Below are positions 55,537 to 60,946 of a stretch of 64,000 nucleotides of DNA, piece after piece. The notes under the pieces were generated by a model. The model had not been told where the DNA came from. It was given only the letters and a program-made list of their open reading frames with translations, and made no database searches. The DNA lies in NCBI RefSeq assembly GCF_008831075.1, contig NZ_WBJX01000003.1, positions 62,001 to 126,000 on the forward strand. The letters run 5' to 3'. Position 1 is the first letter of the stretch; each line of letters begins with the position of its first letter. Position numbers and translations under genes: made by a program. Source of the stretch: Pseudoclavibacter terrae. Its GTDB lineage: Bacteria > Actinomycetota > Actinomycetes > Actinomycetales > Microbacteriaceae.

Positions 55537-56093
55537 CCGCGCTGCTGCTCGTGCGCCACGGCTCGACGCCGTGGACTGCGGAGCGCCGCCTGCAGGGCCG
55601 CACCGACATCGACCTCAACGAGAAGGGGCGAGCCGACGCGCTCGCGCTGCGCGCCGCCATCGACGCGTGGGCGCCTGCCACCGTCGTCACCTCCCCGCTG
55701 CTGCGGGCGCGTTCGACGGCCGCGGCGCTCAGCGACCTCGAGCAGGTCGTCGACGAGCGCTGGGCGGAGGCGACGCTCGGCGAGTGGGAGGGCCGCCTTC
55801 CTGCGGAGATCGGCCCCGACTACGCCAAGTGGCGTGCTGGGCGGCTCGTGCCGCCAGGCGGGGAGCCGTCGCCCGTCCTGCGTGCTCGCGTCGAGGGTGC
55901 CGTCAACGATGCGGCCCGACGCCCCGGCCCCGTGCTCGTCGTCACCCATGGGGGCACGATCCGGGCCGTGCTGGCGCGCTACGTGGGGCTCACGGCCGAT
56001 GTCATCGAGCCGGTCGCCGCGCCGAGTCTCACGGCGATCGATGTCCAACCGGAGGGCGCGGCGCGGCTCGTCACGTTCAACGTGGCCCGCTAG
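55533..56093 (+). CDS. Histidine phosphatase family protein
   Basis: A 186-residue member of the phosphoglycerate-mutase-like histidine phosphatases. LLLVRHGSTPWTAERRLQGR at the N-terminus has the catalytic RHG, SPLLRARSTAAAL follows, and VVTHGGTIRAVL has the second His. No signal peptide, so it acts in the cytoplasm. ATGA overlap with the ATPase gene means it is made together with the importer; it may dephosphorylate the imported compound or its product. This link to a transporter is the notable feature of the operon. Confidence 0.92.
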   Translation: MTALLLVRHGSTPWTAERRLQGRTDIDLNEKGRADALALRAAIDAWAPATVVTSPLLRARSTAAALSDLEQVVDERWAEATLGEWEGRLPAEIGPDYAKWRAGRLVPPGGEPSPVLRARVEGAVNDAARRPGPVLVVTHGGTIRAVLARYVGLTADVIEPVAAPSLTAIDVQPEGAARLVTFNVAR

Positions 56094-56100
56094 CCACGTT
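56079..56100 (+). terminator. Stem-loop terminator overlapping the phosphatase stop codon
   Basis: AACGTGGC, loop CCGCTA, GCCACGTT: 8 perfect base pairs, with the TAG stop codon straddling the loop. It ends the ABC/phosphatase operon. Confidence 0.55.
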
Positions 56101-56171
56101 GCCCGGCAACTGTTACTCCCAAGGCCAGGCCCGCTGGCGGAATGTCGGTGGTGCGGACGACACTTGATGCC

Positions 56172-57233
56172 ATGACGCACGAGACGAACGGCACCCCAGC
56201 GCAGCTCCCCACGACCCTCCTCGGCGACGGCCTCGTGACGACCGTGCAGGGGTACGGGGCCATGAGCCTCAGCGACGCGTACGGCCCCATCGACGACGAG
56301 CAGGCGCTGCGCACGCTGCAGCACGCGGTGGATGCGGGCATCACGTTCATCGACACGGCAAACATCTACGGTGACGGCCGCAGCGAGCGCACCATCGCTA
56401 AGATCTTCCCGGCGCAGCGCGAGCGCATCCAGCTCGCCACGAAGTTCGGCATCACCAAGGGCGACGGCGTCGGCAAGCGGGGTGTGCGCGGCGACCGCGC
56501 GCACGTGCGCGAGCAGGTCGAGGCCTCGCTCACGCGCCTCGGCACCGACTACATCGACCTCTACTACCAGCACCGCGTCGACCCGAACGTGCCCATCGAG
56601 GACACGGTCGGCTTCGTCGCCGAGCTCGTCGCCGAGGGCAAGGTGCGGCACATCGGCCTGAGCGAGCCGACGGGCGCCGAGATCATCCGCGCCGCCGCCG
56701 TGCACCCCATCGCGGCCGTCCAGAGCGAGTACAGCATCTTCAGCCGCGACCTCGAGGCCCACGTCATCCCCGCCATCCGCGAGGTCGGAGCAGGCTTCGT
56801 GCCCTACTCCCCCGTCAGCCGCGGCCTGCTCACCGACTCGTGGGCCGAGCTCGCCGCCGAGAAGCCCAACGTGCGCGCCAACTTCCCCCGTTTCTTCCCC
56901 GAGAACCTGCCGGCGAACCGTGCCCTCGCCGGCGAGGTCGCGGCCGTCGCGCAGCAACTCGGCGAACAGCTCGGCCGCCACGTCTCCGTCGCCGAAGTCG
57001 CCCTCGCGTGGGTCTCCGCGAAATCGGCCGAGCTCGGAGTGCGGGTCTCCCCCATCCCCGGCACCCGCAGCCCCGAGCGCATCGACGAGAACCTGCGAGC
57101 ACTCGGCCTCGAGCTGAGCCGCGAGCAGCTGCTTCGACTCGAATCGATCGCCGAACGCGTCGTCGGGAACCGCTCGGCAGACCCAGCCTGGACGTCCCAA
57201 GGACGCGAAGAGGCGGCGCTCGCGGCATCCTGA
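56172..57233 (+). CDS. Aldo/keto reductase
   Basis: A 353-residue AKR (or 363 from an ATG at 56142). The tetrad is visible: Asp and Tyr in DTANIYGDGRSE, Lys in LATKFGI and His in YYQHRVDPN. The NADPH-binding C-terminus has IPGTRSPERIDENLRAL. It resembles the YajO/AKR11-13-like general reductases. Start uncertain because no ribosome site precedes either ATG. It stands between the phosphatase terminator and the CNNM operon. Confidence 0.9.
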   Translation: MTHETNGTPAQLPTTLLGDGLVTTVQGYGAMSLSDAYGPIDDEQALRTLQHAVDAGITFIDTANIYGDGRSERTIAKIFPAQRERIQLATKFGITKGDGVGKRGVRGDRAHVREQVEASLTRLGTDYIDLYYQHRVDPNVPIEDTVGFVAELVAEGKVRHIGLSEPTGAEIIRAAAVHPIAAVQSEYSIFSRDLEAHVIPAIREVGAGFVPYSPVSRGLLTDSWAELAAEKPNVRANFPRFFPENLPANRALAGEVAAVAQQLGEQLGRHVSVAEVALAWVSAKSAELGVRVSPIPGTRSPERIDENLRALGLELSREQLLRLESIAERVVGNRSADPAWTSQGREEAALAAS

Positions 57234-57259
57234 TCCGGGCGGATCCCCAGCATTCCAAG

Positions 57260-57287
57260 TTGCGGGCAAACGAAGTGCCACTAGAAT
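57260..57287 (+). promoter_or_regulatory. Predicted promoter of the CNNM operon
   Basis: TTGCGG (57260-57265), 16-base spacer, TAGAAT (57282-57287). The expected start point is at 57294-57296, where the leader ORF begins with its ATG. Confidence 0.6.
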
Positions 57288-57295
57288 CTCCCCTC

Positions 57296-57382
57296 ATGGA
57301 AGACCCTCCCAGTCATAGTCCCAAGCCTCTTGACGTTCCGGCCGCATCTTCGGCCGCCACAGTCTGGAGGCACCACGCATGA
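57296..57382 (+). CDS. Leader peptide ORF upstream of the CNNM gene
   Basis: A 28-codon ORF with no ribosome site of its own, beginning exactly where the upstream promoter predicts transcription to start, so it would be leaderless. The first residues are M-E-D-P-P-S-H-S-P-K-P-L-D-V-P: three acidic residues and five prolines in fifteen. It ends with W-R-H-H-A and a TGA that overlaps the ATG of the CNNM gene (ATGA). The composition resembles known Mg2+-sensing leader peptides such as MgtL, which stall or drop ribosomes when Mg2+ is low. A small hairpin (CGGCCG-CATCTT-CGGCCG, 57339-57356) lies within it. Function inferred, not shown. Confidence 0.55.
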   Translation: MEDPPSHSPKPLDVPAASSAATVWRHHA

Positions 57383-58758
57383 ACGAATGGGTGATGCTCG
57401 GCATCGGCCTCGTTCTCACAGTAGGAACCGGGTTGTTCGTCGCGAGTGAATTCGCGCTCGTCAACCTCGACCGAAACGATCTCGAAAACCGGCAGAGCCG
57501 CGGAGAGAGACGACTCGGGCCCACCATCAAGGCCCTGAAGATCACGTCGACGCACCTCTCCAGCGCGCAGCTCGGAATCACGCTCACGACCCTGCTCACG
57601 GGATACACGTTCGAGCCGGCCGTCAGCTCCCTCCTCGCAGAGCCCCTCAAGGGCCTCGGGGTAGCCGAGGGCCTCGTGCCCGTCGTCGGAGCCATCGTCG
57701 GCATCGTCCTCGCGACGCTGTTCTCGATGATCATCGGCGAGCTCGTCCCCAAGAACTTCGCGCTCGCCCTCCCACGGGCGACAGCGAAGGTCGTCATCCC
57801 GTTCCAGGCGCTCTTCACGACGGTGTTCAAGCCCGTGATCCTGCTCCTGAACAACACGGCGAACGCCATCATCCGCTCCATGGGCATCGAGCCCAAAGAG
57901 GAGCTCTCGGGCGCCAGAAGCGCCGACGAGCTCTCCTACCTCATCCGCCACTCCGCGCTCTCCGGCCTCCTCGAAGAAGACGACGCGGCCCTGCTGCGCC
58001 GCACCCTCAAGTTCTCCGAGCACGACGCATCCGACGTCATGACACCCCGCGTGCGCATGGCGAGCGTCGAGGTCGACGACACGGCGCAGGCCATCATCGC
58101 CCTCGCCATCGAGACCGGGTACTCCCGGTTCCCCGTCGTCGACGGAACGCCAGACAACATCACGGGCTTCGTGCACGCCAAGCAGGCGTTCGCGGTCGCC
58201 GTCGACAAGCAGGAGCAGGTCCTCGCCAGCGAACTGCAGACGGAGGCGCTGCGCGTGCCCGAGTCGATGGGCGCCTCCGCCCTGCTCACCCTGCTGCGCG
58301 CCGAACGCCACCAGGTGGCCGTCGTCGTGGATGAACACGGCGGCACGGCGGGCATCGTCACACTCGAAGACCTCGTCGAGGAGATCGTCGGAGAACTCGA
58401 AGACGAACACGATCGGCACCAGACCGGCTTCATCCGGCGCGGCCGCTCGGTCACGTTCGACGCCTCCTGGCGTCCCGACGAAGTACTCGACCGCCTCGCC
58501 ATCGAGGTCCCGGAAAACGGCGACTACGACACCGTCGGCGGCTTCATCACCGACACCCTCGAGCGCCTCCCCGAACTGGGCGACGAGGTCGAGATCGAGG
58601 CCGGCACCCTGCGCGTCGAGCGCATCGACGGCACCCGCATCGTGCGGGTCCGCTACCTGCCGAACGAGCCAGACGGAGACCAGAGCCTCATGAGCAATCA
58701 GGAGCTCGCGCACGACAGAGCCCACGAACGAGTGAAGGAGGCGATGATCCATGAGTGA
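57379..58758 (+). CDS. CNNM/CorC family protein (DUF21 + CBS pair + CorC domain)
   Basis: A 459-residue membrane protein of the hemolysin-C/CNNM family. The DUF21 domain with four helices ([20 protein letters not shown], then [20 protein letters not shown]) comes first, then a CBS pair from about residue 200 ([16 protein letters not shown] ... [20 protein letters not shown]), then a CorC/HlyC transporter-associated domain ([20 protein letters not shown]). Family members export or take up Mg2+; older 'hemolysin' names are misleading. GGAGG precedes the ATG. It is preceded by a leader ORF and overlaps the next gene by 8 bases. Confidence 0.92.
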
Positions 58759-59794
58759 GTACCTGCCAGGCATCCTGTGGCTGTTCGTCCTCCTCATCGG
58801 CAACGCCTTCTTCGTCGGCGCAGAATTCGCCGTCATCTCGGCGAAGCGGTCGCAGATCGAGCCGCTCGCCGAGCGAGGCAGCCGCGCCGCGAAGACGACG
58901 CTCTGGGCGATGGAGCACGCGACGCTCATGCTGGCGACAAGCCAGCTCGGCATCACCGTGTGCTCACTGCTCATCCTGAACGTCTCCGAGCCAGCCATCC
59001 ACCACCTCCTCGAGATCCCGCTCGGGCTCACCGCGCTGTCAGCCGAGCTCATCAGCGTGATCGCGTTCGCGGTGGCGCTCGTGCTCGTCACGTTCCTGCA
59101 CGTCGTCTTCGGCGAGATGATCCCCAAGAACCTCGCGTTCTCGGTGCCAGACCGTGCGTCCCTCCTCCTCGCCCCGCCCCTCGTCGTGGTCTCCAAGATC
59201 TTCAACCCGATCATCTGGAGCCTCAACACGATCGCGAACGGCGTGCTGCGCCTCTTCAAGGTCGAGCCGAAGGACGAGGCGACAAGCACCTACACGCTCG
59301 AGGAGGTGGCCGGGATCGTCGAGCAGTCGACCCGTGAGGGAACGCTGAACGACACCTCAGGCACGCTCGCGGGCGCGTTCGAGTTCACCGAGAAGCGGGT
59401 CAGCGACGTGGATGTGCCGATCGCCGAGATGGTGCTCCTGCCTGCGGGCGCGCGCCCCATCGACGTGCAGAAAGCGGTCGCCGAGCACGGCTTCTCGCGC
59501 TACGTCGTCACCGACGACCATGGCGAGCCGACGAGCTACATCCACATGAAGGACGTCATGGACCTCATGGCCCCAGACGCGTTCACAGCCCCGATCCCGC
59601 AGAAGCGACTGCGGAGCCTCGTCTCCGTGTCGCGGGATGCGGAGCTCGAGGACGCCATGGCGGTGCTCCGCGACCGTGGTGCGCACGTCGCGAAGGCGCT
59701 CGACTCCGAGGGCAACGTCACCGGGCTCCTGTTCCTCGAGGATGTCCTCGAGGTGCTGGTCGGCGAGGTCAACGCGACCGCCGCTGCCGCGTAG
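58751..59794 (+). CDS. Second CNNM/CorC-like protein, without CorC domain
   Basis: A 347-residue relative of the preceding protein with DUF21 (ILWLFVLLIGNAFFVGAEFA, VISAKRSQIEPLAERGSRAA) and a CBS pair (KRVSDVDVPIAEMVLLPAGA ... VTGLLFLEDVLEVLVGEV), but ending before a CorC domain. It starts 8 bases inside the first gene, so translation is coupled. Tandem CNNM genes may form a heterodimer. A terminator follows. Confidence 0.9.
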   Translation: MSEYLPGILWLFVLLIGNAFFVGAEFAVISAKRSQIEPLAERGSRAAKTTLWAMEHATLMLATSQLGITVCSLLILNVSEPAIHHLLEIPLGLTALSAELISVIAFAVALVLVTFLHVVFGEMIPKNLAFSVPDRASLLLAPPLVVVSKIFNPIIWSLNTIANGVLRLFKVEPKDEATSTYTLEEVAGIVEQSTREGTLNDTSGTLAGAFEFTEKRVSDVDVPIAEMVLLPAGARPIDVQKAVAEHGFSRYVVTDDHGEPTSYIHMKDVMDLMAPDAFTAPIPQKRLRSLVSVSRDAELEDAMAVLRDRGAHVAKALDSEGNVTGLLFLEDVLEVLVGEVNATAAAA

Positions 59795-59819
59795 ACGACG
59801 CGTTCGAACGAAGCAGGGG

Positions 59820-59851
59820 GATGCCCCCGCCCGGAAACGGGCGGGGGCATC
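59820..59851 (+). terminator. Strong terminator after the CNNM pair
   Basis: GATGCCCCCGCCCG, GAAA tetraloop, CGGGCGGGGGCATC: 14 perfect base pairs with a stable loop, 25 bases after the stop. Confidence 0.85.
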
Positions 59852-59893
59852 CTGCGTTTCGCGCGCATCCACCCCCGCTCGTTGACAGCCCAC

Positions 59894-60946
59894 ATGGCGA
59901 AACGAGAGGCTGGTGCCGTGCAGCCCATCCCGCAGACCGCCCAGACCACCACCACTGCGAGCGGACGGGAGCGGCTCTCGATCGGCGTCTTCCTCGCCCT
60001 GGCCTTCGGCTTGCCCTGGCTTGTGACGCTGCCCCTGTGGTTGGGCGACGGTCTCGCGCACCCCTGGTTCCCGGTCATCTCGATCGCCATGATGATGACG
60101 CCGGCCATCGCCGCGCTGGTCGCCGTCTTCGGCATCGAGCGTCCGGTGAGGCCATGGCGGGCGCTCGGGATCGTCCCGCTGAAGCCCGTCGGGCGGCTCA
60201 TCGCCTACCTTGCCCTCGCCGTCGTCGTCCCGGTGGCGCTCGTGTTCCTCGCGTTGCCCATCGGTGCCCTCTTCGGCGTCTACTCGATGGACCTCGTGAA
60301 CTTCTCCGGCTTCCAGGCGATGCTCGACGAGCAGCTCGCAGCCGAGGGGGTCGGCAACCTGGAGCTCCCCATCCCGGTCGCCGTGCTCGTGCTGCTGCAG
60401 CTCGCGAGCATCCCGCTCGGCGCGTTCCTCAACCTGATCCCCGCCCTCGGCGAGGAGCTGGGCTGGCGCGGGTGGCTGCTCCCGAAGCTCCTCCGGCTCG
60501 GCACCGTTCCCGCGCTCCTCATCTCCGGGGCCATCTGGGGACTCTGGCATGCACCGTTGATCCTCCTCGGCTACAACTACGTGGATGCGCCTGGCTGGCT
60601 CGCGCTGACCATGATGACGGGCATGTGCGTCCTCGTCGGTGCCGTGTTCGCCTGGCTGCGCATCCGCTCCGAGTCGGTGTGGCCCGCGGCCCTCGCTCAC
60701 GGAGCGTTCAACGCCGCCGCCGGTTCGTACCTGCTCTTCGCCGCGGCTGGCGAGCGGGTCGACACGACGCAGGCCACGATCCTCGGCTGGACGGGCTGGA
60801 TCGTGCCGCTCATCTTCGTCGGCGTGCTGCTCGTGACGAAGCAGTTCTCACCCCCGAAACCCGTCGAGCTGCCGGCTGACCTGCCGGGCCAGCTACCGGG
60901 CCAGCCCGCACAGCCGCACTCAGCATCCCCCTCGTCAACCCCCTGA
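59894..60946 (+). CDS. CPBP family intramembrane metalloprotease
   Basis: A membrane protein of about 350 residues with eight or so helices. The CPBP (Abi) motifs are present: GEELGWRGW (EExxxR), AIWGLWHAPL and HGAFNAA. These conserved Glu and His residues are the active site of type II CAAX prenyl-endopeptidase-like proteins. Bacterial members function in bacteriocin immunity or in regulation; the substrate is unknown. The C-terminus is Pro-rich (LPADLPGQLPGQPAQP). Start uncertain (ATG 59894 or TTG 59882). Confidence 0.88.
   Translation: MAKREAGAVQPIPQTAQTTTTASGRERLSIGVFLALAFGLPWLVTLPLWLGDGLAHPWFPVISIAMMMTPAIAALVAVFGIERPVRPWRALGIVPLKPVGRLIAYLALAVVVPVALVFLALPIGALFGVYSMDLVNFSGFQAMLDEQLAAEGVGNLELPIPVAVLVLLQLASIPLGAFLNLIPALGEELGWRGWLLPKLLRLGTVPALLISGAIWGLWHAPLILLGYNYVDAPGWLALTMMTGMCVLVGAVFAWLRIRSESVWPAALAHGAFNAAAGSYLLFAAAGERVDTTQATILGWTGWIVPLIFVGVLLVTKQFSPPKPVELPADLPGQLPGQPAQPHSASPSSTP

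Follow-up and report, generated by a model that had tools for sequence, protein, structure and literature searches.

The window is the whole stretch of 64,000 nt of Pseudoclavibacter terrae DNA that was analysed. It carries two consecutive CNNM genes preceded by a short leader ORF, with the following features.

57260–57265, + strand: −35-like hexamer TTGCGG, weak, absent from the result of a strict sigma-70 scan.
57282–57287, + strand: −10 hexamer TAGAAT; a TANNNT before the leader ATG is conserved in relatives.
57296–57382, + strand: leader ORF of 28 aa (MEDPPSHSPKPLDVP...), probably leaderless or nearly so; its TGA overlaps the CNNM ATG.
57296–57313, + strand: proposed sensor codons M-E-D-P-P-S; codons 4–6 have no predicted pairing with the CNNM SD.
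57325–57330, + strand: anti-SD arm GCCTCT (codons 10–12), predicted to pair with 57366–57371.
57366–57371, + strand: CNNM SD GGAGG (57366–57370), within the leader ORF, on the 3' side of the hairpin predicted there.
57379–58758, + strand: CNNM1 (CNNM-CBS-CorC_HlyC), from ORF and Pfam; the proposed controlled gene.
58751–59794, + strand: CNNM2 (CNNM-CBS, without a CorC_HlyC match), presumably in the same operon as CNNM1.

The layout upstream of the leader is promoter-like: TTGCGG is followed by a 16-nt spacer, TAGAAT, 8 nt and the leader ATG at 57296. Between the −10 box and this ATG there is too little space for an SD site. The sequence-only reading had described these elements as a good promoter; the hexamers and their spacing are present, but near-consensus quality was not borne out, and a strict sigma-70 scan of positions 56900–57600 reported no promoter. 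It had also described a 28-codon ORF opening with M-E-D-P-P, whose stop overlaps the start of a CNNM/CorC gene in ATGA, and here coordinates and Pfam agree: the leader TGA lies at 57380–57382 and the CNNM1 ATG at 57379, and the Pfam matches are CNNM, CBS and CorC_HlyC for CNNM1 and CNNM and CBS for CNNM2. The two CNNM genes themselves overlap by 8 nt (58751–58758), which is also the overlap of most leaders of other genera into CNNM1. The sequence ATGGANGAYCCNCC occurs only once in the 3.9-Mb genome, at the CNNM1 leader. In a scan of positions 56000–59900 with Rfam models, at E values up to 1, the leader had no match to the M-box (ykoK) or another riboswitch; the one sub-threshold match in this region is unrelated and lies on the opposite strand.

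The conservation of the leader was analysed upstream of 90 CNNM homologs from the family of the window's genome; these are the higher-scoring protein matches and do not cover every CNNM gene in the 199 genomes of the family. Seventeen more distant CNNM paralog loci (L003–L005 and L019–L032) were skipped, and L243 and L245 were without a match. Leaders were called blind to their residues, as a TANNNT placed 5–11 nt before an RTG, with a stop within −10 to +16 of the CNNM start. Such an ORF precedes 88 of the 90 homologs. Residue 2 is acidic (D or E) in 87 of the 88 and residue 3 in 84, and proline is found at residue 4 in 74 and at residue 5 in 75. Residue 6 is serine in 52 of the 88, encoded by TCT, TCA, TCG or AGT, and some leaders read MDDDH, without PP at positions 4 and 5. 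When the 90 loci are classified by motif, there are 72 with M[DE][DE]PP, 12 with M[DE][DE] continued otherwise, four with another M[DE] and two with none; an overlapping M[DE][DE]PP ORF appeared in none of 18,000 Markov-simulated upstream regions. The M[DE][DE]PP leaders range from 11 to 63 aa in length, and 66 of the 72 overlap the gene, ending 8 or 4 nt beyond the mapped CNNM start. The sequence-only reading had asked whether the ORF, its acidic and proline residues and its overlap are conserved upstream of orthologous CNNM genes, and all three are kept; residues 2–5 are the most conserved part of the leader, whose start persists through codon changes. A conserved coupled leader before CNNM genes almost certainly exists. 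Within the genus, CNNM1 is present at 94–100% identity in five of ten genomes, the window's included, and all five have a 28-aa leader (MEDPPSHSPKPLDVPA...) ending in ATGA; the other five lack a CNNM1 ortholog with more than 60% identity to that of the window.

In the family sample, each of the 72 M[DE][DE]PP leaders has a TANNNT ending 5–11 nt before the ATG, mostly at 9–10 nt, and SD-like 5-mers were found upstream of the leader ATG in only one of them. In most relatives 9–10 nt separate the −10 box from the ATG, so that the message could equally well be strictly leaderless or carry a short 5' UTR of a few nucleotides.

The association of the motif with CNNM genes was evaluated at two scales. 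A degenerate DNA pattern for MDDPPSHxP found 78 stretches in the genomes of 84,980 species, and 76 of these directly precede a CNNM ortholog, in Arthrobacter and relatives, Microbacteriaceae and Sanguibacter. The remaining two are L122, where the sequence ends, and L127, from an unrelated MAG. By eye, the pattern-found leaders end 8 nt beyond the mapped CNNM start in 64 cases, 4 nt in nine, 13 nt in two and 1 nt in one. TANNNT is in place in 71 of 77 (the unrelated MAG excluded), and the six leaders without it are Arthrobacter or Pseudarthrobacter records. In 80 family genomes, ATGGAYGAYCCNCC has 71 matches, distributed over 54 genomes; 56 of them belong to CNNM, one at the start of the gene itself and the others immediately before it (33 assigned by tblastn and 23 by coordinate comparison). 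A TANNNT 7–10 nt before the ATG accompanies 33 of the 33 CNNM-linked matches tested, compared with none of the 15 others. The exact ATGGAYGAYCCNCC is absent from 26 of the 80 genomes, including the window's own (GAA there), and the CNNM leaders of these genomes were examined in part. Among MgtE and CorA loci of five genomes, 12 of the 14 loci fetched were scanned and contained no MDD leader; one CorA locus has an unrelated GTG ORF that satisfies the coupling rule. The leader is placed upstream of a putative Mg2+ transport gene, identified as CNNM by Pfam and tblastn, as expected of a leader of the IRD type.

Outside the family, a leaderless coupled ORF precedes CNNM in 45 of 62 homologs (a count that takes in two of the three copies from family f6, Micrococcaceae), compared with 56 of 3100 simulated regions. 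The start of these ORFs is often not acidic, for example MSSDARVDSDPPS, MHSDSPCRREAGAPDDDPHP and the arginine-rich MPSRRCRP, so coupling is more widespread than the acidic start. In the phylum sample, seven of 246 genomes passed the E 1e-100 threshold, and coverage of the wider phylum is limited to these. By the rule used, a leaderless coupled ORF is lacking in the other 17 of the 62 homologs; L139, one of these, has an MDDPPSH leader with TANNNT absent. Other classes of leaderless coupled ORF were seen outside the family, one arginine- and proline-rich (MPSRRCRPxAGLPQSRP) and one of the form MxSDSPSRREAGxPD..., at loci L150, L151, L153, L154, L211, L212, L214 and others.

The frequency and the varied starts of the outside-family ORFs are what would be expected if the leader senses nothing and is a constitutive coupling device, whose leaderless start and overlap load CNNM and whose codons are chosen for an unstructured 5' end. 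Leaderless coupled small ORFs are common (PMC4633059), as is re-initiation at leaders (PMC4833913). Such a device does not account well for an acidic-Pro-Pro start that is kept across codon changes (Ser6 is encoded by both TCN and AGT) and seldom occurs at other places in the genomes. From IRD and EF-P biology, moreover, this start looks unfavourable for efficient translation and seems a poor choice for constitutive loading. We consider purely constitutive coupling unlikely.

Codons 4 and 5 of the leader are CCY at 139 of 148 positions in 74 leaders (CCT 91, CCC 48) and at 152 of 154 positions in the 77 pattern-found leaders; in 37 CNNM ORFs from these loci, 5.5% of the 780 prolines are encoded by CCT and 44% by CCC. 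Codon 4 is T-ending in 24 of 33 CNNM leaders compared with two of 15 chance matches, and the bias towards A/T-ending codons extends to Ser6. IRD is no explanation for the T-ending bias. One effect of the bias may be an open 5' end; alternatively, it may matter for tRNA-Pro(GGG) and its Mg2+-dependent m1G37; m1G37 and TrmD have been tied to Mg2+ and to the proline codons of mgtL (PMC6335274).

The sensed quantity could accordingly be proline decoding rather than acidic destabilization, slow or slipping decoding cutting the passage to CNNM. The CCY codons 4 and 5 would be read by tRNA-Pro(GGG), which receives m1G37 from the Mg2+-dependent TrmD; PP needs EF-P, and the signal may be Mg2+, EF-P, EttA/energy or polyamines. 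Both the CCY preference over CNNM ORF usage and the link between TrmD, Mg2+ and mgtL prolines point in this direction, and EttA acts on acidic starts (PMC11282234). However, acidic residues at positions 2 and 3 (87 and 84 of 88) outnumber prolines at positions 4 and 5 (74 and 75 of 88), the MDDDH leaders dispense with PP at these positions, and the A/T-ending bias at Ser6 means that a low-structure 5' end may account for the codon preference. A leader responding to proline decoding is in our opinion improbable.

The structure of the leader RNA was predicted from individual sequences. In an alignment by MAFFT (A2), the SD arm is shifted between clades, and the analysis was therefore based on per-sequence folds with shuffles and on cross-species pairing. 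A2 contains 80 of 84 unique leaders (L119, L136, L194 and L206 omitted) and was made after removal of duplicates and of eight leaders longer than 125 nt; RNAalifold found six pairs in it, with almost no covariation. In the 27 leaders of the window's kind (type A), the CNNM SD is less accessible than in shuffles (0.106 versus 0.206 unpaired), and it is more closed in 21 of the 27 (p 0.0004). Over their first 24 nt, these leaders are more open than the shuffled sequences (0.566 versus 0.521; 19 of 27, p 0.014), and by eye the strongest SD partner is codons 11–13 in 23 of the 27. The 49 other leaders have a weak SD closure (0.162 versus 0.200 in shuffles, p 0.03). In 71 of 87 cases, arm and SD pair better in the native combination than when arms of distant species are exchanged, the margin being small (means of 21.2 and 20.4); examples of such stems are GCCCCTC/GAGGGGC, GCTCCTTCCG/CGGAAGGAGC and GCCTCTTGAC/GTCTGGAGGC. 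In the fold of the window's own leader, 57325–57330 pairs with 57366–57371, and the whole leader stretch has a folding z of −2.23 (five of 200 shuffles equally stable); its SD, at 0.18 unpaired versus 0.21 in shuffles, is hardly more closed. There is thus modest support for a predicted hairpin masking the CNNM SD in leaders of the window's type. An anti-SD role was also considered for the first leader codons, since GACCCTCCC is seemingly complementary to GGAGG, and was rejected: in 74 leaders, SD-region pairing by codons 4–6 is lower than in synonymous controls (0.13 versus 0.24 of 7 nt).

In one genome the leader and the gene have become one ORF. At locus L287 (G050:C3), which is among the 33 CNNM-linked matches tested for TANNNT, the leader stop is gone and MDDPPSAE stands in frame with the CNNM protein, 10 nt after a TAGAAT; judged by this −10 spacing, the fusion gene is itself leaderless or nearly so. 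Passage through MDDPP would be a condition for CNNM synthesis because the predicted masking of the SD lies 3' of the sensor codons, because leaders of 11 aa exist, and because the motif heads the CNNM protein at this locus. Both the fusion and the existence of 11-aa leaders point to passage, rather than to an alternative RNA fold, as what matters.

These features suggest the following mechanism. Transcription would begin at the leader ATG or a few nucleotides from it, to judge from the −10 spacing, and a ribosome starting on the AUG at the 5' end would immediately make M-(D/E)-D-P-P, an IRD-prone stretch. With adequate Mg2+, it would survive, cross the leader, open the predicted SD-masking hairpin where there is one, terminate at the overlapping ATGA and re-initiate on CNNM. 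At low Mg2+, it would drop off and CNNM would be left untranslated. If CNNM is a Mg2+ exporter, as assumed here, the gate would permit its synthesis only when Mg2+ suffices. Translation of the leader, ribosome drop-off, Mg2+ as the signal, the sign of the response and export by CNNM are what we infer from sequence and from related systems. The bacterial CNNM relative MpfA has been linked to Mg2+ export (PMC6711546), and ‘on at high Mg2+’ is a sensible sign because CNNM/CorC relatives are linked to export or to high-Mg2+ protection. We give about even chances to the leader being a cis-acting translational gate for CNNM with Mg2+ as its signal. The fuller proposal, a positive Mg2+ gate in which a leaderless M-D-D-P-P before both CNNM paralogs allows the exporter only at sufficient Mg2+, one such gate having become the N-terminus of the transporter, is put forward tentatively, as a reasonable possibility.

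Among the closest known systems are the leaders of Mg2+ importers, which are raised when the ribosome on the leader fails (PMC11282234, PMC8092293). MgtL, the leader of enterobacterial mgtA, is similarly short, carries acidic and proline residues directly after Met and lies upstream of a Mg2+ transporter gene, and its early acidic residues destabilize ribosomes (PMC11282234). In that system, however, MgtL acts through Rho-dependent termination, and transcription of mgtA proceeds when ribosomes drop off at low Mg2+ (PMC11282234); the CNNM leader differs in being probably leaderless or nearly so, in overlapping its gene and in the opposite predicted sign. MgtQ, a tiny ORF between mgtC and mgtB of Salmonella, resembles the proposed CNNM device: its translation is impeded by acidic codons 2 and 5, and it controls the translation of a Mg2+ transporter with a structure-masked RBS. 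Unlike the CNNM leader, it is intergenic and its impeded translation raises MgtB (PMC8092293).

A sign of this kind would require that drop-off at low Mg2+ favours an alternative fold or avoids Rho and so turns CNNM on, CNNM being an importer or a helper of import. The resemblance of the leader start to that of MgtL and the use of such a sign by MgtQ (PMC8092293) invite this explanation, which was also the sense in which the sequence-only reading had understood the leader. We find it very unlikely: the SD-masking hairpin is predicted 3' of the sensor, the 11-aa leaders leave scant room for a switch, and MDDPPSAE is fused in frame to CNNM in one genome. What stands of the Mg2+-leader reading is a conserved, probably leaderless or nearly leaderless coupled ORF with an acidic/Pro start that is tied to CNNM; its MgtL-like sign, with the transporter on at low Mg2+, is probably wrong.

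The sign predicted by the positive gate has a parallel in CorC (YbeX) of E. coli and Salmonella, where an N-terminal IRD start is reported inside a high-Mg2+ protection gene, and in YoaL, the leader of mgpA, which overlaps its gene and whose loss lowers mgpA translation (PMC12421838). Expression at high Mg2+ has been proposed for CorC and MgpA (PMC12421838). These are other proteins in other bacteria, and the relevant sections of that paper name no MDDPP motif or leaderless start (PMC12421838). The predicted architecture itself resembles that of the leaderless coupled small ORFs of mycobacteria, which have an RTG at the 5' end and an RTGA stop-start overlap; the sections describing them mention no Mg2+ gene or acidic-Pro motif (PMC4633059).

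A literature search, with most subscription journals and all bioRxiv preprints outside it, returned no paper on such a CNNM leader. Mycobacterial leaderless coupled small ORFs include the polycysteine attenuators, and both parts of the proposed device, ribosome-destabilizing leaders and leaderless coupled ORFs, are known; their combination is apparently new. If the gate is real, few elements that respond to Mg2+ would be smaller than its five-residue sensor, which precedes nearly all the CNNM genes examined in the family and which some leaders carry in an ORF of just 11 codons; ribosome destabilization could then also act as a direct, positive gate. The model yields a clear predicted sign and would identify CNNM as a target of regulation in a large bacterial group.

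The history of the leader can be followed in part from the CNNM genes. In a tree of 74 CNNM proteins, the MDDPP leaders lie on one side, with a support of 100/100, in a group of 53 rows of which three are without an MDDPP-type leader. The three f6 copies (L138–L140), with an MDDP leader, nest within the clade of the window's family, which suggests that gene and leader may have been transferred together. In several genomes there are two CNNM copies, and an MDDPP leader precedes each of them (for example L043 and L203 in G044; L040 and L189 in G011), so both paralogs would be under a leader. The second paralog of three sister species is preceded by the leader MDDDHPPRSAPS..., and that of the window's own genome and of a close relative (L002 and L017) is without one; since the leader is gone in these two species, it is dispensable for the second paralog. 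The loci L002 and L017 represent a natural leader deletion. On visual inspection both retain a −10-like box and an SD, and the gene upstream is one that we take to be guaB1.
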